DNA of 34,560 nucleotides. It comes from a virus. The notes beneath the pieces are model-generated. The model saw only the letters and a list, made by a program, of their open reading frames with translations. It was not told the DNA's origin and ran no database searches. Position numbers and translations under genes: made by a program. The stretch is from positions 1 through 34,560 of IMG/VR virus record IMGVR_UViG_3300030329_005549; one strand, given 5' to 3'. Shown piece after piece: positions 1 to 15,084 of the stretch (the stretch's first letter is position 1; each line of letters opens with the position of its first letter).

Positions 1-198
1 AAACGCCTAGCTTCATTGAGTTTTTTTCTTACAGAAGAGGGCAAGCTATTCCTTAAGACAAGCAAGCTTAAAGCTTCTCTAAACCTAAAACAAGTAGAAA
101 CAGTAGAAGTTGGAGAGGAAAAAATAGGAGAAGATAAAGAACGAACGAAACCCCGCAAGCCTAAGTCCACCCTTGACTTTCTTAAGAAAAAATACTAA
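1..198 (+). CDS. C-terminal end of an unidentified protein, cut by the window edge
   Basis: The frame is open from base 1 to the TAA at 196-198, so this is most likely the tail of a longer gene that starts outside the window. An in-frame TTG at 16 exists but has no ribosome binding site and nothing favours it. The visible 65 residues are lysine- and glutamate-rich, with a basic end (TLDFLKKKY). The family is not recognisable. The last codons contain the -35 element of the promoter for the recombinase gene downstream, so the two genes are packed end to promoter. Confidence 0.6.
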   Translation, partial: KRLASLSFFLTEEGKLFLKTSKLKASLNLKQVETVEVGEEKIGEDKERTKPRKPKSTLDFLKKKY

Positions 199-201
199 AA
201 T
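173..201 (+). promoter_or_regulatory. Promoter P1, leaderless type, for the RecA-like gene
   Basis: TTGACT at 173-178, a 17-nt spacer, then TAAAAT at 196-201. Only 5 nt separate the -10 box from the ATG at 207, so a normal start point falls on or next to the A of the start codon. There is no Shine-Dalgarno sequence before the ATG. The same geometry recurs at 3243, 11393 and 15056. The -35 box lies inside the end of the upstream gene. Confidence 0.7.
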
Positions 202-206
202 TACCC

Positions 207-1301
207 ATGCCTAGAGCGAAAAAAGACGTTTCGGGACTTTCCCCAAAAGACCAGATAGAAGCCTATTTAAAGTCCCATTCTGGAGATCATTACAACTTTG
301 AAGAAGAGAGAACTTATTGCGTGTCTAGCGGAAGTTTATTGCTTGACATTGAAATGGGTGGAGGCATCAGACCAGGCATCATTAGAGCCTCTGGTGTTTC
401 AGAGGGTGGAAAAACTTCATGTGCCTTAGCTTTTGCTAAAAATTTTCAAAAAGAAGATAACAGTATGGCTATCTATATCAAAGCTGAAGGTAGGCTATCT
501 AGTGACATGCTTGAACGTGCTGGAATCGATCAAAGCGATGAAAAATGGTTTACTTATAAAAGCAATGTTTATGAATCTGTTATTGATTTTATTAGACACA
601 TGGTTCAGAGTAACCCAGAGAACTATAGGTATATGTTTATAATTGACTCTATGGATGCATTAGTTCCTCGTGGAGACCTAGACAAAGGAGCAGATGAGGC
701 GATCAAGGTTGCGGGGGGTTCATTGCTTAGTTCTGATTTTTTAAAGAGAATGGCTTTAGGATTGGCTACTAGAGGACATATATGTTTTATGATCTCGCAA
801 GTACGCACGAAAGTTTCTATCAACCCTTATGAAAAAACAGACCCAAGGCTTACAAATGCTTCTGGAGGCAACGCTTTACTTCACTATAGTGATTGGATTT
901 TAGAATTCCAAGAGAGGTATAACAAAGATGTCATAAGCACCCAACCGAACGGCAAAGGTGATGCGCTTGGGCATTGGTGTAAAGTTGTTTTTAGAAAAAC
1001 CCCAAATGAAAAAACAGGCGCAATAGTTAAATACCCAATTCGCTACGGAAGAACAAATGGCAAAAGTATTTGGGCTGAGTACGAGGTTGTAGACATGCTC
1101 CTTCAGTTTGAAATGGCAGAAGCCAAAGGGGCTTGGGTTACAATATCTGACGAATTAATTAAAGAAGTAAAAGAAAAAACGAAGTTCGAACTCAAAAAAC
1201 AACATCAAGGCATGGACAATCTTAGAAAATACTTTGAGGAAAACGAGGATATTGGAAAATTTCTTTTTAAGAAGTTTAGGGAAACACTAAAAAAAGCATA
1301 A
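207..1301 (+). CDS. RecA/UvsX-like strand-exchange recombinase
   Basis: 364 residues, the usual length for RecA-type recombinases. The P-loop is GVSEGGKT at residues 63-70, diverged from the bacterial GPESSGKT. A glutamate follows in IKAEGRL (about residue 94), the Walker B strand is YMFIIDS (142-148), and the L1-like region is ALVPRGDLDKG. The QVRTK stretch near 198 matches the end of RecA strand 5, and the C-terminal GAWVTIS resembles the RecA GAWY segment. These proteins coat ssDNA and drive homologous pairing with ATP. It heads the first unit behind promoter P1 and its stop overlaps the next start (TAATG). The diverged P-loop suggests a phage-specific lineage. The family is secure; orthology to T4 UvsX specifically is not shown. 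Confidence 0.92.
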   Translation: MPRAKKDVSGLSPKDQIEAYLKSHSGDHYNFEEERTYCVSSGSLLLDIEMGGGIRPGIIRASGVSEGGKTSCALAFAKNFQKEDNSMAIYIKAEGRLSSDMLERAGIDQSDEKWFTYKSNVYESVIDFIRHMVQSNPENYRYMFIIDSMDALVPRGDLDKGADEAIKVAGGSLLSSDFLKRMALGLATRGHICFMISQVRTKVSINPYEKTDPRLTNASGGNALLHYSDWILEFQERYNKDVISTQPNGKGDALGHWCKVVFRKTPNEKTGAIVKYPIRYGRTNGKSIWAEYEVVDMLLQFEMAEAKGAWVTISDELIKEVKEKTKFELKKQHQGMDNLRKYFEENEDIGKFLFKKFRETLKKA

Positions 1302-2050
1302 TGTTTAATGATTATAAAATTCGTTGGAGCGACGGTAGGGAAGATTCTATTACCCTGTCAGATTCTACGCCACAATCTTTTGCGGTAGGTGGAATTGCGA
1401 CTGGTGAATTACCAGCATATACATTAGAGAATTTTAAAGCGCAAGACGGCGACATAATGATTGATGTTGGTGGGCATTGTGGGGTAGTTAGCATCTTTTA
1501 TGCTAAATTTTTTCCTAATCTAAAAATCTACGCTTATGAACCTATGCCAAATAATTTTGAAACCTTCAATCAGAATTTAAAAGCCAACAACGTGTCCAAC
1601 GTAGAAGTATTTAACTTAGCTGTGACTTCGAATGGTAGAGACGTTACCCTGTGCCAACCAATATCTAATACTGGAGGCGCAAACGTAACAGATTTTCTAC
1701 GCTCAAACGAAACAAAATACATGAAATTAGCAAAGGCTAAATCCACAACGTTAGATGACATTTTCAAAGAAAACAAAATTGAAAAATGTAAATTATTAAA
1801 AATGGACTGCGAGTGTTCTGAGCATGAAATTCTTCACAATTTTAGTTTCGATTACCCCATTGAAAACTTTATAGGGGAATTGCATATCAATGGAACCTTA
1901 AGGAGAAAAGGATACTCTATAGAAAAAATTATTGAAATACTTGACGCCAACAACGTAAAACACAAAACTGGAGCAATAGAAGTTGCCGATTCCGTAGAGG
2001 ATGATGGTAGGATTATTTCTTATGATTACGGGTTAATGGGACAGCTTTGA
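1301..2050 (+). CDS. FkbM-family SAM-dependent methyltransferase
   Basis: 249 residues. The SAM-binding motif I is MIDVGGHCG (53-61), followed by the acidic motif YAYEPMP (77-83). STTLDDIF (148-155) and LLKMDCECSE (165-174) match the conserved second half of FkbM enzymes, where the usual form is KxDxEGxE. FkbM proteins methylate hydroxyl groups, often on sugars. With the glycosyltransferases (11969-15063) and cupin (7847) in the same region, a role in modifying a phage or host glycan is a reasonable inference, but the substrate cannot be read from sequence. Its ATG overlaps the stop of the recombinase gene. The tmRNA begins 17 nt after its stop, so the RNA is probably cut from the same transcript. 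Confidence 0.85.
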   Translation: MFNDYKIRWSDGREDSITLSDSTPQSFAVGGIATGELPAYTLENFKAQDGDIMIDVGGHCGVVSIFYAKFFPNLKIYAYEPMPNNFETFNQNLKANNVSNVEVFNLAVTSNGRDVTLCQPISNTGGANVTDFLRSNETKYMKLAKAKSTTLDDIFKENKIEKCKLLKMDCECSEHEILHNFSFDYPIENFIGELHINGTLRRKGYSIEKIIEILDANNVKHKTGAIEVADSVEDDGRIISYDYGLMGQL

Positions 2051-2159
2051 TGTGTAAATGAATTTATGGGAGCGTACTGGATTCGATTTAGGGTCTTACG
2101 CTAAATTGCAAGCAGAGGATGATGGTTGGCCTCTTTAAACACCCATTAAAAACACACAT

Positions 2160-2267
2160 GCCAATGATAACATTGACATGGAGATGGCTCCTTCGGTAGC
2201 CGAGGCTGACGAGATTCTCGCTCAGTTCGGTTACGTTGAGGAGGAAGCCCTCCAAATGGCGGCATAG
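2160..2267 (+). other. tmRNA tag-peptide reading frame, unusually long (35 codons)
   Basis: The resume codon is taken as GCC at 2160, because the frame then starts ANDN, the beginning shared by many bacterial tags (E. coli ANDENYALAA). It continues without a stop for 35 codons to TAG at 2265-2267. The peptide begins ANDNIDMEMA and ends EEEALQMAA, so it keeps a double-alanine end of the kind ClpXP recognises. The TAG sits in the loop of the hairpin GGCGG/CCGCC (2258-2274), as tmRNA tag stops usually do. Of the other frames, one stops almost at once and the other gives a 13-residue product ending in arginine. Typical bacterial tags have about 8-20 residues. Confidence 0.8.
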
Positions 2268-2330
2268 TCCCGCCACGTCCTACTCTGGATGCTCGTTAAA
2301 GATGTAGGGCGACGACAGCGAGCAAAACAC

Positions 2331-2350
2331 TGGTTGAGTCTGGTTGAGTC
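2331..2350 (+). repeat. Perfect tandem 10-bp repeat inside the tmRNA
   Basis: TGGTTGAGTC occurs twice in direct succession (2331-2340 and 2341-2350), in the pseudoknot region downstream of the tag stop. The pair is flanked by ACTGG and CCAGT, which can form a 5-bp stem enclosing it. It looks like a recent slip duplication and partly explains the length of the RNA. Confidence 0.8.
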
Positions 2351-2499
2351 TCCAGTAGTTTAAAAAAAGATAGACCAAACTTTACGTGAAGTTGTCGGTG
2401 ACAGACACGTATCGCAAATAAACCGACTAAGCTTGTAGCACATTTGAGCCGATGGTTCTAAAGACGCGGGTTCAACTCCCGCCGCTTCCACCAATTTTA

Positions 2500-2919
2500 A
2501 TGAAATTGCTTGATATACATGGCAGACCCAGAAGCAGAACGGTCACAAAGTTTAAAGTAGATTGGAATAAAAAGTCCCGATCTAAACTCCAATTTAACGT
2601 AAAGCAATTTTTTAAACCCTATTGGGGGGGTCACATTGTGTACGAAGAGTTTCCAGTGTATGGGACAAGACTCAAAGTAGATATCCTCAATGCTACTAAG
2701 AAAATCGCTATAGAAGTTCAAGGGCAGCAGCACGAGTCTTTTAACAAGTTTTTTCACGATAATTCGAGGGCAAAATACCTAGACTCAATCAAGAGAGACG
2801 CTCAAAAAGCGGCTTGGTTAGAATCTAATGGTTTTGTAATTATGTATATTTACGAAAAGGATGTTCCAAATTTATCTTTGTCATTCTTTAGGGAGACTTA
2901 TGGGCTATCTATTGTGTAA
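2500..2919 (+). CDS. Small PD-(D/E)XK-type endonuclease next to the tmRNA
   Basis: 139 residues if the ATG at 2500 is used. The frame stays open back to 2452, but those codons are the 3' end of the tmRNA, so 2500 is preferred. An N-terminal glutamate pair (YEEF, 48-51) is followed by LKVDILN (D61) and AIEVQGQQH (E72-x-Q), a Vsr/EDxHD-like nuclease core. The C-terminal stretch AAWLESNGFVIMYIYEKD matches the closing strand of such folds. It could be a free-standing homing endonuclease, a repair enzyme or a junction nuclease. Its ATG is only 6 nt after the tmRNA CCA and has no Shine-Dalgarno site, so tmRNA 3' processing would leave this message almost leaderless. Confidence 0.7.
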   Translation: MKLLDIHGRPRSRTVTKFKVDWNKKSRSKLQFNVKQFFKPYWGGHIVYEEFPVYGTRLKVDILNATKKIAIEVQGQQHESFNKFFHDNSRAKYLDSIKRDAQKAAWLESNGFVIMYIYEKDVPNLSLSFFRETYGLSIV

Positions 2920-2930
2920 AAATAAATAAG

Positions 2931-3239
2931 ATGTCGAACAAGAAGCCCTTTGAAATACCGAAGCCTGTGTTGCGACAAATCAATGATTGCGCGAATGGCG
3001 GATTTATCTTATTTGCGTTTAATGAAAACAACATGCCTTCTGTTTCTAGTCACTTCAAAGACCCAGCAAAAGCCTTAGCCCTACAACAGTATATAAACAA
3101 CTGGGTATTAGCGGTTGAAGCGATAAATCTCGAAGTAACCGTTGACATTATGAAGGAGGAGCTTGAAATCGATGATTCTGAAGAGGAAATTAGCGAAGAA
3201 GGCGAAGACCCCGAAGATTCTGAAGAAGACGAAGAATAG
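2931..3239 (+). CDS. Small protein with a strongly acidic C-terminal tail, unknown function
   Basis: 102 residues. Residues 1-75 look folded, with mixed hydrophobic and polar sequence including GGFILFAFNEN. From about residue 77 the chain is almost only Glu, Asp and Ser, ending EDSEEDEE. Acidic tails like this occur in phage ssDNA-binding proteins, DNA mimics and RNase or protein inhibitors, but no family is recognised. It sits between the nuclease and the helicase, as the last gene of the P1 unit, 11 nt after the upstream stop. No Shine-Dalgarno site is seen. Confidence 0.65.
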   Translation: MSNKKPFEIPKPVLRQINDCANGGFILFAFNENNMPSVSSHFKDPAKALALQQYINNWVLAVEAINLEVTVDIMKEELEIDDSEEEISEEGEDPEDSEEDEE

Positions 3240-3242
3240 GTC

Positions 3243-3271
3243 TTGACTAAACTTCAAGATAGTGTTAACCT
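3243..3271 (+). promoter_or_regulatory. Promoter P2, leaderless type, for the helicase-polymerase unit
   Basis: TTGACT at 3243-3248, 17-nt spacer, TAACCT at 3266-3271, then 6 nt to the ATG at 3278. The -10 box alone is weak; the call rests on the exact spacing and position shared with P1, P3 and P4. The spacer carries CAAGAT at offset 7-12, as in P3. There is no ribosome binding site. Confidence 0.6.
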
Positions 3272-3277
3272 CGTTGC

Positions 3278-4768
3278 ATGAGTGACATTTATTCATTACA
3301 GATTGAACGTCACGTTTTAGGAGGATTAATCAAATATCCAGATTTATTCGCAGAAATAGATGGTTTTGTAATTGAAAAAGATTTCTACAACGACGTTCAC
3401 TACACAATATACAACGTAATCAAATCCTGCTCGTATTCCAATGAGCAAATAGACAAGGTTCTTCTCGCAACAAAAATCAAAGAGTTGGGGGTATCGTTTA
3501 AAGATGATATTAACATCTATGACTACATAGAAAACCTTGCTTTCACCCAAATCACAAAAGACGCGACAATCAAAGCGTGTCAAGAGCTTATTAAATACAG
3601 GATTCGAAGGGAAATTGAAACAACAGCTAATAAACTTAAATCTGAAATAAAATCAAACGGAGATAAATCAATCGACGACATAGTTGCGTCTTGCGATTCC
3701 ATTTACAATGATAAGATTTCATCATATTCAGATAGCGATAAGCCAGAAAGAATCACCGATGGCTTAGTAGAATTAGTAGAAGATTCTGGAAATAACCCAG
3801 ACGACGAAAGCGGATTCTCTGCCCCATACCCAGAATTTAACAGGCTTTATGGAGGCTTCAAGAGTGGGCATGTTTATGCTATTGCTAGCAGACCGGGCGA
3901 AGGCAAAACTACTTGGCTCAATGACATCTGTTTTAAATCAGCGGCGAAGAATAACGTAAAAGCCCTAGTGCTCGACACGGAAATGACAACGCTAGAAATT
4001 AAATGGAGAATTGTTTCCTCTTTGACTGGTGTGCCGACTTGGTATCTTGAAACTGGCAACTGGAGAAAGACTCCAGAATATTACGAAAAAGTTAGAGCAG
4101 CAGAAGAACTGTTAAAGAAAAATAATGACTATTTTCATTATCACGTAAGCAATAAGAACATTGACCAAATATGCTCTTTAATTCGTAGGTGGTATTACAA
4201 TGAAGTAGGCAGAGGCAACAAGTGTTTAATCGTTTATGATTACGTTAAGCTTACTGGAGAAAAAGTAGGGCAAAATTGGGCAGAGTATCAAGCTATTGGA
4301 GAGAAAATCAGTCGATTAAAAGAGATCGCTGAAGAAGTAAACGCTCCGTTGCTCACCGCTATGCAACTCAATAGAACAGGAGAGAACAGAAACCGCACGG
4401 GAGCAAGCTTGGTTGATGATAGTTCTGCTATTTCCCTGTCAGATAGACTCCAATGGTATGCTGCATTTACAGCTATTTTCAGACGCAAAACGCTAGATGA
4501 AATCGCTTTAGATGGAGAAGACTTTGGAACACACAAGCTAATTCCGCTAAAGACAAGGTTTCAAGGTAAAGACGCTATGGGGCATCAAGACTTCTTACGA
4601 AGAAGATTCCCTGACGGTTCTGAAAGGTATGTCATGAATTACCTTAATTTTTCTGTTGAAAATTTTAACATAGAGGAGTGTGGTTCTTTACATCACATAT
4701 GTGAACGAGCGAGAGAAACCTACGAGCTTAATGATAGACGTAGGAATGATGGTGAGTCTGTATTATGA
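3278..4768 (+). CDS. dnaB: DnaB-like replicative helicase
   Basis: 496 residues, within the DnaB range. Residues 1-105 form a DnaB-type N-terminal domain (IERHVLGGLIKYPDLF, then FYNDVHYTIYNVI). The RecA-fold motor follows: P-loop ASRPGEGKTTW (203-213), glutamate in LDTEMT (near 235), Walker B CLIVYDYVKL (316-325), and AMQLNR (361-366), the DnaB motif 4 form. It unwinds DNA ahead of the phage polymerase, working with the primase whose ATG overlaps its stop (ATGA at 4765). No loader gene is visible in the window. It heads the P2 unit. Identification is secure from motif order and spacing. Confidence 0.95.
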   Translation: MSDIYSLQIERHVLGGLIKYPDLFAEIDGFVIEKDFYNDVHYTIYNVIKSCSYSNEQIDKVLLATKIKELGVSFKDDINIYDYIENLAFTQITKDATIKACQELIKYRIRREIETTANKLKSEIKSNGDKSIDDIVASCDSIYNDKISSYSDSDKPERITDGLVELVEDSGNNPDDESGFSAPYPEFNRLYGGFKSGHVYAIASRPGEGKTTWLNDICFKSAAKNNVKALVLDTEMTTLEIKWRIVSSLTGVPTWYLETGNWRKTPEYYEKVRAAEELLKKNNDYFHYHVSNKNIDQICSLIRRWYYNEVGRGNKCLIVYDYVKLTGEKVGQNWAEYQAIGEKISRLKEIAEEVNAPLLTAMQLNRTGENRNRTGASLVDDSSAISLSDRLQWYAAFTAIFRRKTLDEIALDGEDFGTHKLIPLKTRFQGKDAMGHQDFLRRRFPDGSERYVMNYLNFSVENFNIEECGSLHHICERARETYELNDRRRNDGESVL

Positions 4769-5700
4769 GCGTTAATATTAAAGATATGCTGTACGAACTT
4801 GGCTACTCCAACATACAGGAGAACGCCAAGGAGTACAGAGCTAGACCTATATACAGAGAGTCTGACAACAATACCGTCTTACGCATAAACAAACACAATG
4901 GTAGATTCGTTGATTTTGCTAGGAACGTTAGTGGTAGCTTTGAAGATTTAGTCCAAATATCTTTGAATTTAAAATCTATCAACGAAGCAAAAACTTGGGT
5001 TGGAAATCATGGCGGGATTAGTTCTGATTCAATACAAGCAAAACCCGAACTCAAAGAACAAAAAACATTTTCCAAATCTGTATTGGCCAAATTATCTCCA
5101 GAGCATGATTATTGGATAGACAGAGGGATAAGTGAATATACAGTTTCTGAGTTTAAAGGGGGTATAGTCAGAGAAGGAAAAATGGCAAATCGATATGTAT
5201 TCCCCATCTTTAATGCAAAGGAAGACTTGGTGGGTGTTGCGGGTAGAGACTTACACAATAACACCAATAGGCCAAAGTGGAAGCTGATTGGAGACAAGTT
5301 CCAATGGAAATATCCACTCTTTTTAAATTATGAAATAATTAAAGAGAAAAAAGAAGTTGTCATCGTCGAAAGCATAGGCGACATGCTTGCGTTATGGGAT
5401 ATCAATGTCAAAAACATTGTTGTATCTTTTGGGCTAGATATTCCTACGGCCCTTTTAAACCTATTCCTCAGATATGACCTAGAAAGGTTGGTGGTTTCAT
5501 TTAACAATGACTCGCAAGACAATAACGCAGGAAATATGGCAAGCGAAAAAGCCAAAAAAAAATTACTAAATTACTTTGATCCTCACCAAGTTCAGGTTAT
5601 ATTGCCTGACAAGAACGACTTCGGGGAGATGAACAAGGAGGAATTATTATTATGGGCGAAAACAAACAATATCTATCAGCCTCTAGAATCAAGACGCTAG
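4765..5700 (+). CDS. DnaG-type TOPRIM primase
   Basis: 311 residues, shorter than bacterial DnaG and without a helicase-binding C-terminal domain. The TOPRIM core is EVVIVESIGDMLAL (197-210, catalytic E202), then SFNNDSQDNNAG (245-256), then DKNDFGEM (282-289). The N-terminal 70 residues (ARPIYRES...GRFVDFARNVSGS) resemble the DnaG zinc-binding fold but contain no cysteine, so the metal site appears lost. The Asn-Asn-Asp form of the metal motif is a variant of the usual DxD seen in phage primases. It would make RNA primers for the polymerase, coupled to the helicase by the 4-nt gene overlap. The downstream nuclease starts inside its last 49 bases. Confidence 0.9.
   Translation: MSVNIKDMLYELGYSNIQENAKEYRARPIYRESDNNTVLRINKHNGRFVDFARNVSGSFEDLVQISLNLKSINEAKTWVGNHGGISSDSIQAKPELKEQKTFSKSVLAKLSPEHDYWIDRGISEYTVSEFKGGIVREGKMANRYVFPIFNAKEDLVGVAGRDLHNNTNRPKWKLIGDKFQWKYPLFLNYEIIKEKKEVVIVESIGDMLALWDINVKNIVVSFGLDIPTALLNLFLRYDLERLVVSFNNDSQDNNAGNMASEKAKKKLLNYFDPHQVQVILPDKNDFGEMNKEELLLWAKTNNIYQPLESRR
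5635..5641 (+). promoter_or_regulatory. Strong ribosome binding site fixing the nuclease start
   Basis: AAGGAGG lies 10 nt before ATG 5652, inside the end of the primase gene. It is the clearest Shine-Dalgarno sequence on the + strand of this window. It shows that the host uses ordinary SD initiation as well, which makes the SD-less promoter-proximal genes stand out. Confidence 0.8.
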
Positions 5701-6626
5701 AAAATTGCTCTTGGTTATACTGGTGTAAATATCACCTTAAGCTGCCAGACAGCACGAATGATGGAGCCATCAGAGGCTCTATCTGTCACCTTATTTTTGA
5801 ATGCTTGCTAGAAGAACGCAGAAAGCCTTTGTTTGATACAATTATGAAGGCCAACGATTTGGAGTCGAGCCCTTCTATTATCAGGTTAGTCAACAAGCAC
5901 CTAACCAGAGAGGGCGCTCATACCCAAGAGAACTACGACATGATCAAGAAGATGGTTCTTGTTGGCCTTAAAAATGATTTTTACTGCAAAGGGAAAGCTC
6001 TTGGAATAGCAGAGCAAAAGTTTGATATAGTAAGTGAAAATCCGCCTTACAGAATTCTTGGCTTTATAGACAAACACGCCATTGACAAAAAGGAAGGCGC
6101 TGTAAGTATCATTGATTATAAATCAAGCAAAAGCAAATTCAGAGGGGAAGAGCTAGATTCAAACCCTCAAGCCATGATGTATTCTTTGGCCGCGAAAACC
6201 CTTTGGCCAAAAGTTAAAAAGCGTTTAGTCCAGTTTCTTTTCTTAAGATTTCCTCGTCAACCAGTTCAAGAGCTTGAATTTACAGATGATCAACTTCGTG
6301 GATTTGAATATTATCTGTCTCATATTTATGAGCAAATAAACAATTTTACAGAAGAGCTTGCGAAATCAAATTACGCAAAAGATAACCCTAAAGTTCATTG
6401 GCTCTGTGGGCCAGCTAAAAGTGGGTGGATTTGCCCGTATCAAAAACCCTTTGACTATTACGTTTTGCTTGACAAAGATTCAAGAATACTTCAAACTGCA
6501 TATGAAGAAGATGACCTTCCCAAAAAGAAAAAAGGTCAAACCATAGAAATAAGAAAGTATGAAGGATGCCCAAGGTTCTACTCCTCAAACGCGGAAAAAA
6601 ACCCTAACGACCCATTTGACTGGTAA
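5652..6626 (+). CDS. RecB/Cas4-like PD-(D/E)XK exonuclease with probable Fe-S cysteines
   Basis: 324 residues. RecB-family nuclease motifs appear in order: SASRIKTLENC (9-19), GSICHLIFE (42-50, H45), GFID (137-140, D140), IIDYKSSK (153-160, D155 and K157) and QAMMYSL (173-179, the QxxxY motif). Cysteines at 19 or 25, and at 252, 261 and 306, match the one-plus-three layout of AddB/Cas4 iron-sulfur nucleases. Such enzymes resect DNA ends, which fits with the recombinase and annealing protein here. The start at 5652 is supported by AAGGAGG 10 nt upstream, and the first 49 bases overlap the primase gene. The next gene begins in its stop codon (TAATG). Confidence 0.88.
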   Translation: MGENKQYLSASRIKTLENCSWLYWCKYHLKLPDSTNDGAIRGSICHLIFECLLEERRKPLFDTIMKANDLESSPSIIRLVNKHLTREGAHTQENYDMIKKMVLVGLKNDFYCKGKALGIAEQKFDIVSENPPYRILGFIDKHAIDKKEGAVSIIDYKSSKSKFRGEELDSNPQAMMYSLAAKTLWPKVKKRLVQFLFLRFPRQPVQELEFTDDQLRGFEYYLSHIYEQINNFTEELAKSNYAKDNPKVHWLCGPAKSGWICPYQKPFDYYVLLDKDSRILQTAYEEDDLPKKKKGQTIEIRKYEGCPRFYSSNAEKNPNDPFDW

Positions 6627-7384
6627 TGACGCCACTTTTTAAATCTCATTATTCTATTGGTAAGTCGATACTTACGTTAGAAGAGGAAGGCTCGTCTATG
6701 AAAAACGGGCCTCAATCAATTATTGATTTATGCAAGGAAGCTGGCATTAAAGATTTATATTTAGTAGAAGATTCAATGAGCGGCTTTTTACAAGGATATA
6801 TTAATTCAAAAGAATCGAAGTTAAACTTTCGATTTGGATTGAGGTTGAACGTGTGCGGCGATCTAAAAGAAAAAAACGAAGACTCACTCAACAAGACATC
6901 CAAGGTTGTTATATTCGCTAATAATCAAAAAGGGTATAAGCGGCTTATTAAAATTTCCACACAAGCTTCTCAAGAAGGGTTTTATTATCAACCGCGTACT
7001 GATTATAAAGCCTTAGCAAAACATTGGAATGATAAAGATTTAACTTTAGCTGTACCATTTTACGATTCGTTTTTGCATAGGAATGCGCTTCATGGAGCGG
7101 TCTGCGTTCCTGACTTTGGATTTGCTAAAAATTTAGTTTTTTTTGAAGAGGAAAATGATATACCTTTTAACTTTCTGATTAAAAACCATTTGAAAGAGTA
7201 TGTTAATGGTACTCATGAAACACTGAAGGTAAAGAGTATTTTCTACCCCAAAAAAGAAGACTTTAAAGCGTATCTGACATTCAGATGCATAAACAAAAGA
7301 ACAACCTTAGATAAGCCAAACTTAGAGCACATGACGAGTAATGAGTTTTGCTTGGAAAGTTGGAGTGAAGCAAATGCTAGTTAA
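6626..7384 (+). CDS. Detached PHP domain of DNA polymerase III alpha
   Basis: 252 residues that align by pattern to the N-terminal PHP domain of DnaE. Landmarks are SHYSIGKSILTL at the start, SIIDLCKEAGIKDLYLVEDSMSG, FRFGLRLNV, NNQKGYKRLIKIST, and the closing KKEDFKAYLTFRCINKRTT followed by SNEFCLES. The last part corresponds to the DnaE segment just before the palm. The usual PHP histidine and aspartate metal ligands are largely missing, so proofreading activity is unlikely. The catalytic core is a separate gene at 8829. The stand-alone domain presumably binds the core in trans to complete the enzyme. The start overlaps the previous stop, and the last 11 bases overlap the next gene. Confidence 0.8.
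   Translation: MTPLFKSHYSIGKSILTLEEEGSSMKNGPQSIIDLCKEAGIKDLYLVEDSMSGFLQGYINSKESKLNFRFGLRLNVCGDLKEKNEDSLNKTSKVVIFANNQKGYKRLIKISTQASQEGFYYQPRTDYKALAKHWNDKDLTLAVPFYDSFLHRNALHGAVCVPDFGFAKNLVFFEEENDIPFNFLIKNHLKEYVNGTHETLKVKSIFYPKKEDFKAYLTFRCINKRTTLDKPNLEHMTSNEFCLESWSEANAS
7362..7365 (+). promoter_or_regulatory. Ribosome binding site deciding the start at 7374
   Basis: GGAG ends 8 nt before ATG 7374. An upstream in-frame start near 7341 has no such site and would lengthen the overlap with the PHP gene, so 7374 is chosen. Confidence 0.55.
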
Positions 7385-7850
7385 AGTAACAAATAAACAC
7401 GGCGGGAAAGGGCGTCAACGAAAAGACCGAGAGGATCGCACTCTTGGATACAGGTCTTGGAGGCTTGAACAAGCTAGGGGGCTGTATACTACTGACGTAG
7501 ACCAAGTTGAATGGAGAGCTATTGGGGGTAAATTAGTGCCAGTAGCAATTTTAGAACTAACTAGGGTAGATGGAGACAGACGGCCTGTTCAAAAGTACTT
7601 CGATGCTATTATTGATAGGTTTACAAACAGGGACTCCCAAAAGCAAACCATTACATATGTAGCCGATAAGTTAAATGTAAATGCTTTTATAGTCGCTTAC
7701 CTCCAAAACCTTTCTCAATTTTACGTATACAATCTATCCGAAGGCGACGGATGGAAGTTTTATTCAAAATCAGAATACAAGACTTGGCTCTCTTCTTTAG
7801 GGGCAGAGCTTATAACTACCGAAGAAACCGAAGACCCATTCGAACTATGA
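7374..7850 (+). CDS. Unknown 158-residue phage protein, possibly with a nuclease-like fold
   Basis: The N-terminus is basic (KHGGKGRQRKDRED), followed by DVDQVEWRAIGGKLVPVAILELT, then a helical part with VADKLNVNAFIVAYL and LSQFYVYNLSEG. An acidic residue, a beta hairpin and an ExT/K-like strand end resemble the outline of PD-(D/E)XK or VRR-type nucleases, but no catalytic lysine is clear. It ends acidic (TTEETEDPFEL). It lies between the two DNA polymerase fragments, overlapping the PHP gene by 11 bases and sharing ATGA with the cupin gene. Function is not assigned; a DNA transaction role is inferred only from position. Confidence 0.6.
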   Translation: MLVKVTNKHGGKGRQRKDREDRTLGYRSWRLEQARGLYTTDVDQVEWRAIGGKLVPVAILELTRVDGDRRPVQKYFDAIIDRFTNRDSQKQTITYVADKLNVNAFIVAYLQNLSQFYVYNLSEGDGWKFYSKSEYKTWLSSLGAELITTEETEDPFEL

Positions 7851-8209
7851 ACATGGACGCAGGAAAACCTAAAATTGTAAAGAAAGCTTGGGGGCAAGAA
7901 CTCTGGATGGCTAATAACCAAGCTGAAAATTATTGTGGTAAAATTTTAACCATCGACAAAGGCTATAAGTCCTCGATGCATTTTCATCTTAGCAAACACG
8001 AAACATTTTATGTTTTGAAAGGTAGCCTTGCGGTTCATCTATTTAACCTTAGTGAAGGCGAACCTTTGGAAACCGTTGTTGTTAACGAGGGGGAAACTTA
8101 CGAGCTTGACAGGGTGACGGCCCATCAGCTAGAAGCTCTTGAGCAATTAGAACTGATAGAAATAAGCACCTTCCACAGAGACGAAGATAGCTATAGGATA
8201 CATAGGTAA
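7847..8209 (+). CDS. Single-domain cupin, mannose-6-phosphate isomerase-like
   Basis: 120 residues from ATG 7847, which overlaps the previous stop (ATGA). The frame is open back to 7751, but that lies inside the preceding gene. The cupin metal motif is HFHLSKHETFYVLKG (two His and Glu in the first motif) and the second motif histidine is in VTAHQLEAL. The opening KKAWGQELWMAN and LTIDKGYKSSMH match the type II phosphomannose isomerase/sugar-nucleotide cupin pattern. Such proteins act on or bind phosphorylated sugars. Here it sits inside the polymerase operon, which is odd; a link to the glycosyltransferase genes 4 kb downstream is possible. Confidence 0.8.
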   Translation: MNMDAGKPKIVKKAWGQELWMANNQAENYCGKILTIDKGYKSSMHFHLSKHETFYVLKGSLAVHLFNLSEGEPLETVVVNEGETYELDRVTAHQLEALEQLELIEISTFHRDEDSYRIHR

Positions 8210-8847
8210 TGGACGAACATCTACTCAGATTCGATAAAGAAAAAACTTTCGTATTCATCGACTGCGAAACCCTCAACCTTTGCTTGAATTCTTGCCATAA
8301 TCTGCCTTGGCAGATCGCTATGATTAAAGTAAAAGGAGGCAAAAAAGTTGCGGAGAAAGACATTTACATAAAATGGGATACAGATTTAAAAATTAGCGAA
8401 GGCGCTGCTAGAATTACGAGATACAGCCAGAAGACCGTTGATTCGCTAGGTATAGCCCCAGAAGAAGCCTTTCCAACTATAGAAGACTGGCTGGACAACG
8501 CAGACTATATTGTTGGTCATAACATTATAGGCTTCGATGTTTATTTAATTAAGGATTATTACAAATTACTTGGCAAATCTTCAGAGCATCTTTACCCCAA
8601 AATGATTGACACGAGCGCTATAGCGAGAGGGGTTAAAATGGGCATACCCTTTAAGAATGGAGACTCTCTGGCGGAATACCAATACATAGCTTATCACAGA
8701 AAGCAAAAAGGAATAAAAACAAACATGACTTCCTTGGGTAAAGAATTTGACATAGACCATGACTACGCTAATCTTCATAATGCCTTAATCGACTTAGGGC
8801 TTAATGTTAAAATTTGGGAAAAACTTAAATGGCAAATCGATCTTTAA
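8209..8847 (+). CDS. DnaQ-like 3'-5' exonuclease (DEDD family)
   Basis: 212 residues. Exo motif I is FVFIDCETLN (D18, E20). Motif II is YIVGHNIIGFDVYLI (D110). Motif III is LHNALIDLGL (H190, D195), the DEDDh form. The enzyme probably proofreads for the DnaE core encoded directly downstream; the two genes overlap by 19 bases, which favours coupled synthesis. It starts in the stop of the cupin gene (TAATG). In many bacteria this activity is a separate epsilon subunit, as here. Confidence 0.9.
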   Translation: MDEHLLRFDKEKTFVFIDCETLNLCLNSCHNLPWQIAMIKVKGGKKVAEKDIYIKWDTDLKISEGAARITRYSQKTVDSLGIAPEEAFPTIEDWLDNADYIVGHNIIGFDVYLIKDYYKLLGKSSEHLYPKMIDTSAIARGVKMGIPFKNGDSLAEYQYIAYHRKQKGIKTNMTSLGKEFDIDHDYANLHNALIDLGLNVKIWEKLKWQIDL

Positions 8848-11396
8848 CATTCGAAAAAAAATTCAAAGACTATGATCTTGATATACACGGCGTAAGACTG
8901 CCTCAATTCGAGATTGATAACACCTACAAGCACAGGCTTCATGTAAGTGAGGACTGTAACAATTTTGATTTTTTACGCAAGCTGTGCCTCACAGGCTTTA
9001 ACCAATTAAACGTCGAGAAAGATTCTGAGCTTTACAACAAATACGTAGAAAGAGCTAAATATGAATTAAACACCCTCAAAGAACTCGGTTTTATTGACTA
9101 TACTTTATTGGTATGGGATGTGATCAATTTCTGTAAAGAAAACGATATCCCAACTGGACTAGGGCGTGGGTCTGCCGCCGGGAGCTTGGTGTTATTTTTG
9201 ATTGGGGTAACGGGCGTTGACCCGATTAGACACGATTTATATTTTGAGAGATTCGTTTCAAAAATTCGTGCTAAAAAAACAGTTGTCGATGGGGTAACGT
9301 ACCTTGATGGGTCTTTGATGTGCGATGTAGATTTAGACATTTGCTACTATAGGCGACAAGAGGTAATTCAATATCTAGAAAATAAATTCAAAGGCAAAAC
9401 CGCTAAGATTATTACCATGAACACGCTCAGTGGTAAACTGCTGATAAAAGAATGCGGTAAAATTGTTGCTGAGAAAAACGAAACCGAAATGAATGGGGTA
9501 TCAGCGCTTATACCTAAAACATTTGGGCAAGTTATGGACATCGAAGAGGCTTATAAAGAAGAAGATAAGTTTCGTGATTGGTGTGATGATAATAAAACAG
9601 CTTATAAGGTAGCGCTTAAGCTTCGCGGTCTAATCAAAAACAAAGGGGTACACCCTTCTGCCATCTCCCTTTCTTACGAGAAGATGGAGGATTCTTGCCC
9701 AGCAGAATTAACTTCAGCGAAAGACTCTTCAGTGTCTTCGTATGATATGAATTGGATTTCTATTTTTAATGTTAAACTTGATTTGTTAGGGCTTCGCAGC
9801 GTCTCTGTTGTAGATGACGTATGTAAACAGGTTGGGCTAAGTTTGAATGAAATAGACTTGAATGACCCATTGATTTACAGGCAGCTTCAAGACTTAAAAA
9901 CGCCTCACGGGTGTTTTCAGATTGAAGCCGATACAAATTACAAAGTTTGCCAAAAAGTCATGCCAAAAAACATCGAAGAATTAAGTGCGGTTCTTGCTTT
10001 AGCTAGGCCGGGCGCGATGCAATTCGTCGATCAATATGCTTTGTACGTAAATAGTGATACATACGAACCTATCCATCCGTTCTTTGATGATACCTTAAAA
10101 GAAACGGGTGGCGTAGCTCTTTACCAAGAGCAGCTAATGAAAATGGCTAATAAAGTCGGGTTCACCCTCGATGAAGCTGAAATTTTACGCAGGATTGTTG
10201 GCAAGAAAAAGAGGGCGGAAGTTAAAAAGTGGAAAAACAAAATTTCAGATAAAATCAAAGAGAATAAACTAGACCCAGAAATTGGCGATATCCTCTGGCA
10301 AATTCTGGAAGATTCAGCTAATTATTCTTTTAATAAGTCTCACAGTATGAGCTATGCCGCTTTAGCTGCTGCGACAGTTTACCTTAAATTTAAATATCCA
10401 CAACAATTTTTCTTAAGCTTATTGAAGATGACTCGTCATGAGCCCGACCCAATTAGTGAAATTGCTAAAATTCATACGGAGATGAGCGAGTTTGACATAA
10501 AACTTTTACCACCTCATCTTACCCGTTCTGAAATGGACTTTAGTATCGAAGGTGATGATATTCGATTTGGTCTTTTATCCATTAAAGGTATTTCTGAAAA
10601 GTCAATTGAAAAAATAAATAACTTTAAAAATACTTATTCTGATAAGTTCGAAGTATTTATGGCCGCTAAAGAATCCAAGTTGAACATAGGTGTGCTTTCT
10701 GCTCTTATCCAAGCTGGGGCTTTAGAAGGGTTTAAGCAGTCACGCAGCAAAGTCGTACTAGAGGCCCAACTGTGGAACCTTTTGACGGATAGGGAACGCA
10801 GATACGTTATGAACTTTGCAAAGCAAATGGATTATGATTTAGTTGAAATCCTCAAGTTCTTGATGAAGTTCAAAGACGAAAAGGGGAAAGTTATAATCAA
10901 AGACTCTAGGTACGAAACAATAAAAAAGAAATATAAACCATATTTGGACATATATATACTTAATAGTAAATCTGAAAGCTTTGCGAATTGGTATTACGAA
11001 AAAATGCTTTTAGGTTATACTTACAACAAATCCTTGAAAGACATCTTCTCCCAAAGACGAGAAGACCTTTCTTCGATTAGGGAAATTGGAGAAATGCCAT
11101 TTAGGTCTAGGGCTATTTTTGTAGGACGGATAGAAGACACTTACAAAGGAAAATCAAAAAACGGCAATAAGTATTTCAAAGCGGTTATCTCTGATGAAAC
11201 AGGGCTTTTGCCCACCCTCATTTTTAAGGATAAAATGGATGAGTGCGAAAGCCTAAACGGCGGGTTCCCCAAGAAAACTAATATTGTAATTGTAAAAGGG
11301 CAAAAATTTGAAGACGCTATATTTGCTGATATGATTAGCGTTCAAGATACGAAGGTTTTTACCAAGCTTTCTGAATTGAAGGCAATTAAAAGTTGA
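8829..11396 (+). CDS. dnaE: DNA polymerase III alpha (DnaE) catalytic core without PHP domain
   Basis: 855 residues that begin where the palm of DnaE should begin (FLRKLCLTGFNQL). GLGRGSAAGSLV (111-121) is the family signature. CDVDLDICYYRR (165-176) supplies the two catalytic aspartates, and KLDLLGLR (316-323) the third. VHPSAISLS and ALARPGAMQFVDQY follow in family order, then fingers, a helix-hairpin-helix region and an OB-fold (RAIFVGRIEDTYKGKS near 757). The PHP domain normally at the N-terminus is a separate gene at 6626. The stop (TGA 11394-11396) is part of the -35 box of promoter P3. A clear beta-clamp motif was not identified. Confidence 0.95.
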   Translation: MANRSLTFEKKFKDYDLDIHGVRLPQFEIDNTYKHRLHVSEDCNNFDFLRKLCLTGFNQLNVEKDSELYNKYVERAKYELNTLKELGFIDYTLLVWDVINFCKENDIPTGLGRGSAAGSLVLFLIGVTGVDPIRHDLYFERFVSKIRAKKTVVDGVTYLDGSLMCDVDLDICYYRRQEVIQYLENKFKGKTAKIITMNTLSGKLLIKECGKIVAEKNETEMNGVSALIPKTFGQVMDIEEAYKEEDKFRDWCDDNKTAYKVALKLRGLIKNKGVHPSAISLSYEKMEDSCPAELTSAKDSSVSSYDMNWISIFNVKLDLLGLRSVSVVDDVCKQVGLSLNEIDLNDPLIYRQLQDLKTPHGCFQIEADTNYKVCQKVMPKNIEELSAVLALARPGAMQFVDQYALYVNSDTYEPIHPFFDDTLKETGGVALYQEQLMKMANKVGFTLDEAEILRRIVGKKKRAEVKKWKNKISDKIKENKLDPEIGDILWQILEDSANYSFNKSHSMSYAALAAATVYLKFKYPQQFFLSLLKMTRHEPDPISEIAKIHTEMSEFDIKLLPPHLTRSEMDFSIEGDDIRFGLLSIKGISEKSIEKINNFKNTYSDKFEVFMAAKESKLNIGVLSALIQAGALEGFKQSRSKVVLEAQLWNLLTDRERRYVMNFAKQMDYDLVEILKFLMKFKDEKGKVIIKDSRYETIKKKYKPYLDIYILNSKSESFANWYYEKMLLGYTYNKSLKDIFSQRREDLSSIREIGEMPFRSRAIFVGRIEDTYKGKSKNGNKYFKAVISDETGLLPTLIFKDKMDECESLNGGFPKKTNIVIVKGQKFEDAIFADMISVQDTKVFTKLSELKAIKS

Positions 11397-11421
11397 CACA
11401 CAACCAAGATTGAAGTAATAT
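11393..11421 (+). promoter_or_regulatory. Promoter P3, leaderless type
   Basis: TTGACA at 11393-11398 overlaps the DnaE stop codon. The spacer is 17 nt, the -10 box is TAATAT (11416-11421), and ATG 11429 follows after 7 nt. A TATAAT at 11419-11424 is an alternative but gives a poor 20-nt spacer. The spacer has CAAGAT at the same offset (7-12) as P2. There is no ribosome binding site. Confidence 0.75.
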
Positions 11422-11428
11422 AATAAAC

Positions 11429-11968
11429 ATGATTCAGTTCTACAAACTTAATTCGAAGGTGAGTGGTGGGGCTTGTAGCTTCTACCTCAATAAGTCTGAC
11501 GGGTCATTTTTTGGCACAATGGTCAAGCAAGCCTCGTGGGACGAAAAAAGACGCAAGGGCAGCGTAAACAAGGACAGCCAAATCACAGTAAAATATAGTC
11601 CACAAGAAATTTCAGATATTATTTTTGCTATCGAAAACAAAAAGGACTTCAGCGCTTATCATTCTTCAACAAACGTAACTAAAGTTGGTTTTTCTTACGC
11701 GGAAAGTGGAGATAAATCTGGTTTCCATTACAACATTACCCAAGAGCCAAAAGAAGATTCAACTCAAAAAAAGTCCATCAGGGTTTCGCTTTATTACAAT
11801 GAAGCTTTTTACCTCAAAAAGCATCTTGAATATTTGCTTAACGAATACTTTGCGTCCGAAGATGCAAAATACGAAGCTCGGCAAGCAGAGTATCAAGCAA
11901 AACAACAAAGTAAACAGCAATCGAATGCTCCTGCTCAAGAAAAAGCAGACGAAGAAGACCCTTGGTAA
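11429..11968 (+). CDS. Putative single-stranded DNA-binding protein
   Basis: 179 residues: a beta-rich N-terminal part (GGACSFYLNKSDGSFFGTMVKQASW, FSAYHSSTNVTKVGFSY, KSIRVSLYYNEAFYLKKHLEYLL), a glutamine-rich linker (about 150-168) and a short acidic end, ADEEDPW. That layout (nucleic-acid-binding core, flexible linker, acidic tail ending in an aromatic residue) is that of SSB proteins, and the core resembles Whirly/PC4-like ssDNA binders more than an OB-fold. It directly follows the polymerase and has its own promoter P3. Function is inferred from architecture and context, not from a certain family match. Confidence 0.5.
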   Translation: MIQFYKLNSKVSGGACSFYLNKSDGSFFGTMVKQASWDEKRRKGSVNKDSQITVKYSPQEISDIIFAIENKKDFSAYHSSTNVTKVGFSYAESGDKSGFHYNITQEPKEDSTQKKSIRVSLYYNEAFYLKKHLEYLLNEYFASEDAKYEARQAEYQAKQQSKQQSNAPAQEKADEEDPW

Positions 11969-13882
11969 ATGAGTAAAAAGAAAATTCTCTTTCAAAGCGA
12001 CTTTTCGCTTGGTAAAACTGGATTTGGCAGAAACGCAAGAGCCTTGCTTAAGTATCTGTACGAAACAGATAAATATGAAATCGTTCATTACTGCTGCGGC
12101 ACTCCTTATTCCGAACCTTTTTTAAAAAAGACCCCTTGGAAATCTATAGGGTGTTTGCCTGACGATCCAAGGGAACGAGAAATGCTAAATAAAGACCCTC
12201 ACATGTCTAAGAGGGCTTCTTATGGTGAGTATTACCTTGATAAAGTCATAAAAGAAGAGAAGCCAGATGTATATATGGCTGTTCAGGATATTTGGGGCGT
12301 AGATTTTTCTATAAAAAAGCCTTGGTTTAACAAGATCAATTCAATAATTTGGACAACGTTAGACTCTTTACCAATTCTACCAACAGCAGTAGAAGCCGCA
12401 AAGAAAGTAAAACACTATTGGATATGGAGCAGTTTTGCTACAGACGTTTTAAATGAAATGGGTCATGATCACGTTCGCACGGTTCACGGTATTGTTGATC
12501 CAAAACTATTTAAAAGGTTAAGTGATAAACGACGCAAACAACTTAGGGAAGAAAACCAAATAGACGAAAACGAATATGTAGTTGGTTTTGTATTTCGTAA
12601 CCAGTTGAGGAAAAGTGTTCCAAATTTATTAGAAGGTTTCAAAAAATGGAAAAACAGGAATAGAGACGCAAACGGAAAGCTTCTTCTCCATACGCATTTT
12701 GGAGAAGGTTGGAACATAATGAAGTTGGCTGACGAGTATAACGTTGATAAGTCAGATATATTAACGACCTACGTTTGTAAAAATTGTCATAAATATTCAG
12801 TCGCTCCATTCGAAGGAGAAGAAAAGGACTGCCCTCACTGCAAAGCTCAAAAATCGATGGGAACAACGAGCGTTGGCTATGGAGTAACGGAAGAACAGCT
12901 TAATGAAATATACAACCTTATGGATGTTTATTGTCACCCATTTACGTCTGGAGGTCAAGAAATTCCCATCCAAGAAGCAAAGCTTACAGAATTAGTTACG
13001 CTCGTCACTGATTATTCTTGCGGAGCAGAAATGTGCAAAGACGAAGCTTGTTCTTTGTCATTAGATTGGTCAGAGTATAGAGAGCACGGCACAGAATTTA
13101 TTAAAGCCTCCACTAATCCAAATTCCATAGCGAAGCAGCTTGAAAAGGTTTACAAAATGAAACCCAATAAAAAAGCTGACATGGGAAGAAAAGCGAGAGA
13201 TTGGGTTGTCAACAATTTTTCACCAAAAGTTGTAGGTGGGTTCATTGAAAACTATATAGATAATTTACCTAAAATTAATTTTGACTTTTCTTTTGAACGG
13301 GGCGATCAAAACCCAAATTATGTTATGCCTCAGATAGAAGATGACGAAGAATGGATTCTTCACTTATATCATAATATATTAAATGAGCCTGATATTGATA
13401 AAGATGATGATGGTTTTAAATATTGGAAGCGAGAAATAAAAGACAAGAGAACCCCCAGAGAGCATATTGAGAGTTACTTTAGACAAGTCGCTGCGAACTC
13501 TAGCGAGAAGGATGTAATGACCAACTTCGAAAGTCTTTTGGGTGAAGATGATGCTGGAAAAAGAATAATTTATGTAATGCCCGAAAGCGCGGAAGACGTA
13601 TTTTTATCGACTTCATTATTTGAGTCTATAAAAGACCTGTATCCAGAACATAATCTTTATGTGGCTACGCAACCACGGTATTTTCCTATACTTAGCGCTA
13701 ACCCTCATGTATACAAAACGCTTCCGTATTCTAAGCAAATGGAATCTTTTTCGTTTTTAGAAGGAAGTGGAGAAGACATGGGCTATTTCGAAATAGCTTT
13801 TATGCCTTTCGTAAATACCCAAAGGCATCCGTGTTATTCCCACAACGGGAAAGACAAGTTAGGCTTACAACTTAAAAATTAA
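11969..13882 (+). CDS. Multidomain glycosyltransferase: GT4-type, DUF4214-like and N-terminal half of GT9
   Basis: 637 residues. Residues 1-430 are a GT-B glycosyltransferase: FSLGKTGFGRNA near the start, VGFVFRNQLRKSVPNLLEGFK (205-225) and the acidic motif GGQEIPIQEAKLTEL (328-342). A zinc ribbon (C270, C273, C288, C291) is inserted between the two Rossmann halves. Residues 460-507 (HNILNEPDIDKDDDGFKYWK) resemble DUF4214, a domain seen in bacterial surface and glycosylation proteins. Residues 530-637 (RIIYVMPESAEDVFLSTSL, LYVATQPRYFPILSANPHV) match the first half of GT9/heptosyltransferase-type enzymes; the second half is the next gene. It starts 0 nt after the preceding stop. The target may be host surface glycan or a phage structural protein. 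Confidence 0.8.
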   Translation: MSKKKILFQSDFSLGKTGFGRNARALLKYLYETDKYEIVHYCCGTPYSEPFLKKTPWKSIGCLPDDPREREMLNKDPHMSKRASYGEYYLDKVIKEEKPDVYMAVQDIWGVDFSIKKPWFNKINSIIWTTLDSLPILPTAVEAAKKVKHYWIWSSFATDVLNEMGHDHVRTVHGIVDPKLFKRLSDKRRKQLREENQIDENEYVVGFVFRNQLRKSVPNLLEGFKKWKNRNRDANGKLLLHTHFGEGWNIMKLADEYNVDKSDILTTYVCKNCHKYSVAPFEGEEKDCPHCKAQKSMGTTSVGYGVTEEQLNEIYNLMDVYCHPFTSGGQEIPIQEAKLTELVTLVTDYSCGAEMCKDEACSLSLDWSEYREHGTEFIKASTNPNSIAKQLEKVYKMKPNKKADMGRKARDWVVNNFSPKVVGGFIENYIDNLPKINFDFSFERGDQNPNYVMPQIEDDEEWILHLYHNILNEPDIDKDDDGFKYWKREIKDKRTPREHIESYFRQVAANSSEKDVMTNFESLLGEDDAGKRIIYVMPESAEDVFLSTSLFESIKDLYPEHNLYVATQPRYFPILSANPHVYKTLPYSKQMESFSFLEGSGEDMGYFEIAFMPFVNTQRHPCYSHNGKDKLGLQLKN

Positions 13883-13884
13883 AA

Positions 13885-15063
13885 ATGCCTCACATACTAG
13901 AAACATACGCATTGAACTGCGGCGTTAAGATTAATAAGCCGTTTATATACGAACAATATTACCCCGTAGGAGTAGAAAAATATATAACCCTCCACTCAAG
14001 CTCAGAAAGCCAATCAAAACAGTACGACTATTGGGATGAAGTAGTTGACTATATTAAATCGCCCCTCTCCAAAGAAGGGATAGGCATTGTACAAATTGGA
14101 GAAGCGTCTGATAGGGGGATTAGAAACTGCACTTGGACACAAGGAACAGCGTCTTTTAACCAAACGCCGTTCATTTTGAAAAACTCAATGCTACATGTGG
14201 GGGTTAACAACTACGAATCTTCTATAGCTTCTCACTATGGGGTAAAAATGGTGGTTCTTTGTCCGAATCAATATGCTGCATCTTCGGGGCCATATTGGTC
14301 TAACGAAGAAAACGCTAAAGTTTTTGAATCGGTTAGTGAAGATAGAAAGCCGTCTTTTTCTGTCGTGGAAAATCCAAAAACTATCAATGAAATTTATCCA
14401 GAAAAAATAGCCCAAAGTATCCTCGATCTTTTAGGCATTGATTATAAAATTCCTTATCAAACCGTATTCATTGGGGATAATTATTCTTCTATGAATATAC
14501 AGACAGTTCCTTCTTCCCCAGCGCAAACAAGCTCTGAAGTAACATTGATCGTCCGTATGGACTTAGAATTTAACGAACAAGTTCTAGCTCACCAAGCTTC
14601 ATTGGGTAAATGCGGGATTGTTACAGAAAAGCCAATCGATACAGATTTGCTATCTTACATAAAACCAAATATAGAAAATTTAATTTATATTCTGGATGAA
14701 AACGAAGACTTGAATTTTGTTAAGTTTTTGCATGAAAACGGGATCAAGCACGCATTGATGACGGATATGGAAGGAGAAAAGCTTGACAAAATGAAACTTA
14801 AATATCTTGATTACGGATTCATTTTCCAAAGGAGAACCTCTGATAAAGACATGGACAAAATCAAAGAAGTCCCAATGGATTTTCTTCACTTTAAAACAAG
14901 AAAAAAAATCTTTCAAGATGGCAATGTCTACAATAGCGTTTTCGACCTAAAAAGAGATAAAAAAGCTTCAGACATTAATGATTTTTCATTTTCAAAAGTT
15001 GAAGATGCTGATGATTTCTGGGAGAGCTTAGAAGACTATTACATCGTAAAAAAGTTTGACTAA
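13885..15063 (+). CDS. C-terminal half of a GT9-type glycosyltransferase plus unknown domain
   Basis: 392 residues. Residues 1-190 fit the nucleotide-sugar-binding half of GT9: KYITLHSSSESQSKQYDYW, EGIGIVQIGEASDRGI, then LHVGVNNYESSIASHYGVKMVVLC. The matching N-terminal half is the end of the preceding protein, which stops 2 nt before this ATG in another frame. Residues 200-392 (FIGDNYSSMNIQTVPSS onward) form a second region of alternating strands and helices with no recognised family. The pair may work as a complex. The gene has no Shine-Dalgarno site, so re-initiation after the upstream TAA is likely. Its stop overlaps promoter P4. Confidence 0.7.
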   Translation: MPHILETYALNCGVKINKPFIYEQYYPVGVEKYITLHSSSESQSKQYDYWDEVVDYIKSPLSKEGIGIVQIGEASDRGIRNCTWTQGTASFNQTPFILKNSMLHVGVNNYESSIASHYGVKMVVLCPNQYAASSGPYWSNEENAKVFESVSEDRKPSFSVVENPKTINEIYPEKIAQSILDLLGIDYKIPYQTVFIGDNYSSMNIQTVPSSPAQTSSEVTLIVRMDLEFNEQVLAHQASLGKCGIVTEKPIDTDLLSYIKPNIENLIYILDENEDLNFVKFLHENGIKHALMTDMEGEKLDKMKLKYLDYGFIFQRRTSDKDMDKIKEVPMDFLHFKTRKKIFQDGNVYNSVFDLKRDKKASDINDFSFSKVEDADDFWESLEDYYIVKKFD

Positions 15064-15084
15064 TTTCCAAGGATTCATTAGACT
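15056..15084 (+). promoter_or_regulatory. Promoter P4, leaderless type
   Basis: TTGACT (15056-15061), 17-nt spacer, TAGACT (15079-15084), 6 nt, then ATG 15091. The -35 box overlaps the stop of the preceding gene. CAAGGA occupies the same spacer offset (7-12) as CAAGAT in P2 and P3. The first codons ATG AGT GAC are the same as those after P2. Confidence 0.65.

Follow-up and report, generated by a model that had tools for sequence, protein, structure and literature searches.

Predicted leaderless promoters at the heads of replication operons in a family of uncultivated aquatic phages

Analysis of a phage genome fragment together with its relatives revealed sigma-70-like promoters placed directly before the start codons of genes that head replication and recombination operons. 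These promoters very probably yield leaderless or near-leaderless mRNAs, with the tail operon kept separate, an arrangement whose reason would be compaction combined with insulation. The window, that is, the whole stretch of DNA analysed, corresponds to positions 1-34,560 of the IMG/VR record IMGVR_UViG_3300030329_005549 (34,560 bases, GC about 38%). Its replication half (1-15.8 kb, + strand) encodes RecA/UvsX, DnaB, a DnaG-like primase, an exonuclease, a PHP-domain fragment, a DnaQ-like exonuclease and DNA polymerase III alpha, and is accompanied by tail genes. DNA polymerase III alpha appears to be split: the gene at 8829-11396 and a separate gene at 6626-7384 match one family (phrog_405), the latter at its PHP end, with other genes lying between the two.

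The comparison set comprised 80 IMG/VR loci whose DNA polymerases are 63-82% identical to that of the window, giving 1.52 Mb with the window for the scan of promoter geometry; since these relatives share ancestry, the site counts obtained from them are not independent. For the set of motif-led genes (223 genes), 13 further loci derived from metagenome-assembled genomes (MAGs) were added. Gene calls and Shine-Dalgarno (SD) statistics were produced with custom scripts. The phage family is large, uncultivated and aquatic, and no isolate phage reaches 60% polymerase identity to the window. Polymerase relatives in MAGs span Flavobacteriaceae, Saprospiraceae, Proteobacteria, Halobacteriovorax, Verrucomicrobiales, Woesebacteria and Lokiarchaeota, a scatter over phyla that looks like misbinned phage contigs.

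Four predicted promoters of shared geometry in the window

Promoter 1 (173..206, + strand) consists of TTGACT at 173-178, a spacer of 17 nt and TAAAAT at 196-201, followed after 5 nt by the ATG at 207; it precedes the gene of a RecA/UvsX-like recombinase (207..1301, +; PF00154, E = 9e-17; phrog_97, E = 9e-33). Promoter 2 (3243..3277, +; TTGACT-17-TAACCT-6-ATG 3278) precedes the gene of a DnaB-like replicative helicase (3278..4768, +; PF03796 and PF00772; phrog_19, E = 5e-59), which heads an operon continuing with primase, exonuclease, PHP, DnaQ and polymerase III alpha genes. Promoter 3 (11393..11428, +; TTGACA-17-TAATAT-7-ATG 11429) lies before the gene of an SSB-like protein (11429..11968, +), and promoter 4 (15056..15090, +; TTGACT-17-TAGACT-6-ATG 15091) before a conserved gene with no family match (15091..15822, +). 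Every letter of the boxes and every distance reported for these sites in the initial annotation agrees with the window sequence. At each site the hexamers are TTGACA-like and TATAAT-like with a 17-nt spacer, as in sigma-70 promoters, and the TANNNT box stands 5, 6, 7 and 6 nt, respectively, from the start codon, as in TA-led genes.

The four sites are the sole matches to TTGACN18TANNNTN{4,9}ATG on both strands of the 34.5 kb. Dinucleotide shuffles (n = 100) give a mean expectation of 0.21 matches against the 4 observed, with none of the 100 shuffles reaching 4, and the reversed control pattern yields 0 matches in the window. A generic scan for sigma-70-like promoters detected 49 instances against 46.4 expected; since such matches are not enriched, it is the geometry as a whole that carries the signal. 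The weight-matrix check suggested in the initial annotation was carried out with 70 non-redundant sites from relatives, the window being left out to avoid circularity, and all window positions were scored on both strands. The dnaB, recA, SSB-like and 15091 sites come out at ranks 1, 2, 3 and 8, with scores of 19.6, 18.4, 17.6 and 8.1, the best other position scoring 10.0. It is scarcely credible that the boxes form an operator or an origin site instead of promoters: both hexamers, their spacing of 16-18 nt and their distance from the start codon are those of sigma-70 promoters, and each window site lies on the strand of the gene that follows.

The product of gene 11429 has no Pfam or PHROG match. 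Its AlphaFold model (pLDDT 91.7) retrieves WHY1/WHY2 with Foldseek (E = 7e-5), and the family alignment displays an acidic C-terminal tail that is conserved and has W or F as its last residue (W in the window). The most fitting interpretation is a single-strand binding protein with a predicted Whirly/PUR-like fold. The product of gene 15091 has no Pfam match either, other members of its family having just scattered weak ones; its model is of low confidence (pLDDT 72), with weak Foldseek matches to RAD52 (best E = 4e-3), and the protein may be a Rad52-like annealing protein.

Spacing of the boxes and of the start codon across relatives

Across the 1.52 Mb, TTGACN-17-TANNNT occurs 308 times, about threefold more often than the same boxes with spacers of 14-16 or 18-21 nt (about 80-130 each). 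For boxes 17 nt apart, the next ATG follows the -10 box at a distance of 6 nt in 113 cases, 7 in 37, 8 in 29 and 9 in 21, compared with 1-2 cases at distance 6 for control boxes of that spacer. When spacers of 16-18 nt are pooled, each distance from 0 to 4 nt has 3-8 matches, a number that rises to 23 at 5 nt and to 140 at 6 nt, the filled range being 5-11. This sharp lower edge is the one expected if the ATG has to lie inside a transcript whose start is about 7 nt beyond the -10 box. The pattern precedes 223 predicted genes in the 80 loci, the window and the 13 MAG loci, compared with 0-10 for four control patterns; the start codon is AUG in 193 of the 223, as chosen automatically. In 34 whole virus records, 164 matches fall at distances 5-8, compared with 18 for the reversed control (summed from the table). 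The exact 17-nt spacer described for the window thus holds at its four sites and becomes a strong preference in the relatives, where 180 of the 223 genes have 17 nt, 26 have 18 and 17 have 16.

Restricting the analysis to mutually dissimilar spacers leaves 74 sites, 43 of them at distance 6, whose information is almost entirely contained in the two boxes, with nearly none in the spacer sequence. Position, spacing and the absence of SD sites are conserved in relatives where the flanking sequence diverges. Coding constraint from the upstream gene was considered as a cause of the TTGAC conservation and is ruled out by the position of the box relative to the upstream stop, which varies from -15 to +18.

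The distance peak also bears on the choice of start codon. The annotated ATGs might be wrong and the true starts lie downstream behind a normal leader; in favor of this, the family alignment of gene 15091 has a variable N-terminus ahead of a conserved core. The SSB-like family, however, has an invariant M1 and is conserved from residue 1 onward, which supports the annotated start of gene 11429; moreover, the peak is tied to the annotated ATG across gene families that are not related to one another, which makes wrongly placed starts highly improbable.

Pelagibacter phages HTVC008M and HTVC010P, one of which was measured to be similarly AT-rich, show no enrichment of the pattern before real ORFs, and their few distance-6 matches precede ORFs of merely 5-12 codons. 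Rhizobium and Caulobacter phages were set aside as a comparison, their GC content being too high for a fair one. Chance in AT-rich DNA is ruled out by the control boxes, the shuffles and these two Pelagibacter phages.

It is quite conceivable, although not the reading we favor, that the promoters are real and leaderless and that the phage copies the habit of a host rich in leaderless genes, a proposal that concerns the reason only and is compatible with compaction and insulation. Leaderless genes occur widely among bacteria, making up more than 20% in Actinobacteria and Deinococcota (PMC3160421), and the SD-bearing internal genes would mean that the host ribosome uses both modes. Against this proposal, 150 genomes of the phylum of one MAG that holds such a phage contig contain 199 strict matches compared with 105 for controls in several hundred Mb, whereas the phages have, in 1.5 Mb, 113 compared with about 1-2. 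Every match in the 1.8 Mb of that MAG, whose bin may not be the host, falls on the phage contig. Since the Pelagibacter phages and the genomes of the MAG phylum show little or none of it, the arrangement is a trait of this phage family, and not of AT-rich aquatic genomes or of aquatic phages in general.

A second promoter class was observed in one relative of 171,916 bases (L024/G016), with a spacer of 16 nt and a distance of 6 nt, before many small early-type genes; this relative has 28 leaderless-type genes altogether.

Genes that carry the promoter

Promoter occurrence was counted by homologous gene, with the -35 box relaxed to a match at 4 or more of its 6 positions. The SSB-like gene carries the promoter in 70 of 75 homologues (93%), gene 15091 in 56 of 66 (85%) and dnaB in 41 of 51 (80%). 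The PHP gene is preceded by it in 57 of 73 relatives (78%), the window's own copy lacking it. Primase, exonuclease, DnaQ-like, polymerase, glycosyltransferase and tail genes are at or near the level of shuffles; for primase, exonuclease, DnaQ, polymerase and tail genes, 0-9% have the promoter, compared with 1-10% in the shuffles.

The recA promoter, present in the window as it had been written, is hardly conserved as such. The strict motif precedes 1 of 41 recA homologues and the relaxed motif 18 of 40, all of them at distance 9. The relatives mostly have their promoter one small ORF further upstream, this ORF being preceded by a leaderless-type promoter and lying within 400 nt of recA in 20 of 28 cases. 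The end of the corresponding ORF is seen in the window at 1..198 (+), cut by the window start. In one clade, dnaB shows 9-10 nt between the -10 box and the ATG; the predicted leader there is therefore 3-4 nt long, not zero. The proposal that transcription starts on the ATG of the replication genes is thus strongly supported by the relatives in a softened form, in which the predicted start point lies on the ATG or a few nucleotides before it.

Shine-Dalgarno sites and the tail operon

As proposed for the four window genes, none has a usable SD site, the anti-SD energies being +1.8, +0.6, -0.5 and -3.1. An AAGGA near gene 15091 sits upstream of the -10 box and hence outside the predicted transcript. 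Among motif-led genes (n = 211), a 4-base SD core is found in 3%, compared with 0% in the control. The same core occurs in 30% of operon-internal genes (5% for a downstream control) and in 41% of divergent starts (4% in the control). The host ribosome probably uses SD sites, since these two groups carry them above control. The internal gene at 5652, for which a perfect SD site had been reported, does have a real AAGGAGG; this is separated from the ATG by 10 nt and falls within the end of the primase gene, and an SD site is present in 22% of the homologues compared with 7% in the control.

The start of the tail genes is built differently. The region 23572..23654, from which two structural (tail) operons diverge, has an inverted repeat, -10-like boxes and SD-like GAGG/AAGGA before the ATG at 23655, with no TTGAC box at spacer 17. 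The homologues of the tail-operon head at 23655 have an SD site in 86% of 22 cases, compared with 5% in the control. The inverted repeat TTACAC-16-GTGTAA (23605-23632) adjoins or overlaps TATAAT/TATATT-like -10 boxes. In all loci, TTACAC-N5..16-GTGTAA occurs 22 times (21 in relatives and once in the window), at the start of the 23655 gene in the relatives listed, compared with 1 match in total for three permuted control palindromes. The repeat may serve as an operator or as a 5' hairpin of the structural promoter. The tail operon is presumably late, judging from its gene content. The tail half also includes a J-like central fibre gene (26679-30884), whose product resembles J proteins of phages with Gram-negative hosts.

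Promoters within intergenic gaps

A same-strand upstream neighbor was found in 212 cases, with a median gap of 31 nt from stop codon to ATG, compared with a median of 1 nt between other same-strand neighbors. This length equals one promoter (6+17+6+6) minus 4 bases of overlap between TTGA and the stop. In 78 of the 212 cases, the TGA of TTGAC occupies the position of the upstream stop codon. The window offers three variants of such overlap: at promoter 1, the TAA of the -10 box (from 196) terminates the preceding ORF (1-198); at promoter 3, the TGA within TTGACA is the stop of the polymerase gene, which ends at 11396; at promoter 4, the final T of the -35 box opens the TAA stop of the preceding gene, which ends at 15063. 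The promoter, as delimited by its predicted boxes, fills the gap from stop to start and leaves no leader.

The same crowding could be taken to mean that translation proceeds mainly from long polycistronic read-through mRNAs, the closeness of box and ATG being a by-product of short gaps. Nearly all heads indeed lie in compact same-strand arrays, with the short median gap given above. Crowding alone predicts distances below 5 nt as well, whereas the observed peak stands at 6 with a sharp lower edge; the spacer-16 class of G016 keeps this distance of 6, and the genes lack an SD site for internal initiation. We consider translation mainly from read-through mRNAs improbable.

Proposed mechanism and its rationale

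According to the model that we favor, the host-type (sigma-70-like) promoters would make RNA polymerase start on the AUG of the operon head genes, or 0-4 nt before it, and ribosomes recognizing a 5'-terminal AUG would initiate on these genes in the absence of an SD helix. Genes farther down the operon would depend on SD sites or on coupling, and the structural (tail) operon would be expressed from a different promoter region, with its inverted repeat and an SD-bearing leader. Such an organization would be compact, the promoter taking up exactly the gap between two genes. It would also insulate the head genes, in that a gene with no SD site would be translated well only from its own transcript and not from read-through. 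The initial annotation had proposed altered ribosomes or limiting initiation factors as the context of leaderless translation, for which the analysis brought no evidence to light; the anatomy is better accounted for by compaction or by insulation from read-through. A phage-encoded bS21 was considered as a general link to altered ribosomes and rejected, being found in just 2 of 40 relatives (L106 and L107).

A related idea, possible but rather doubtful, is that translation initiation is divided by gene class, with leaderless replication and recombination genes expressed from promoters of strong -35 and weak -10 boxes as opposed to SD-led tail genes, so that a change in ribosomes or initiation factors could switch the phage from replication to virion production.

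Relation to known leaderless systems

The lambda cI transcript from PRM is the classical leaderless phage mRNA, and differs from the present case in serving a single maintenance gene and not a set of replication operons. Leaderless initiation was first found in lambda, as noted in PMC3160421. A TANNNT element whose first T lies about 10-12 bp upstream was described in many bacteria by Zheng et al., who also suggested that leaderless starts may shield genes from translation on read-through transcripts (PMC3160421). In Deinococcus radiodurans, TANNNT located 6-7 bp before ORFs was experimentally shown to drive leaderless mRNAs (PMC12340547). The TA-led genes of Deinococcota and Actinobacteria resemble those described here in having TANNNT 6-7 bp before the ORF, in lacking SD sites and in being operon-proximal (PMC12340547; PMC3160421). 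They differ in that the carrier is here a phage family with an SD-led tail-operon head. Moreover, in Deinococcus the -10 box works without a -35 box, the addition of which raises expression, whereas TTGAC is the strongest element in the present phages.

Cluster O mycobacteriophages (Corndog and relatives) have a few predicted leaderless promoters (PMC4351075). These are PL1, PR2 and PL2, of which PL2 serves a structural operon, and the host itself is rich in leaderless genes. Unlike in Cluster O, the arrangement here extends to most replication units of 80 contigs and spares the tail operon. Sulfolobus likewise has leaderless proximal genes and SD-led distal ones (cited in PMC3160421); here the promoters are of the bacterial sigma-70 type and belong to a tailed phage, and the split goes by the function of the genes in addition to their position. 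A search of open-access papers yielded no phage family described as combining, family-wide, leaderless replication heads with an SD-led tail operon.

Leaderless translation in phages has so far mostly been a matter of single genes, or of few promoters in leaderless-rich hosts. A phage family that is apparently leaderless for its replication heads, and not for at least one structural operon of the same genome, lets the two initiation modes be compared in a natural setting, and leads to a testable idea of how translation might serve a phage to keep gene classes apart. For such phages, the geometry also supplies a practical rule for correcting start codons, the ATG being sought about 6 nt after TANNNT.

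A tmRNA gene in the window and in relatives

A one-piece tmRNA gene was observed at 2068-2493 (+) of the window (RF00023, 130.8 bits), which ARAGORN missed. A tmRNA scores above the cut-off in 19 of 40 relatives (including L099-L104). The tag frame is unusually long and conserved, with 30-35 residues, a core of the form DM..APS[VL]xEADxILA..G[YWF]xE and an AA/VA end; the tag of the window reads ANDNIDMEMAPSVAEADEILAQFGYVEEEALQMAA. In one relative (L085), a candidate tag of 45 residues was found.
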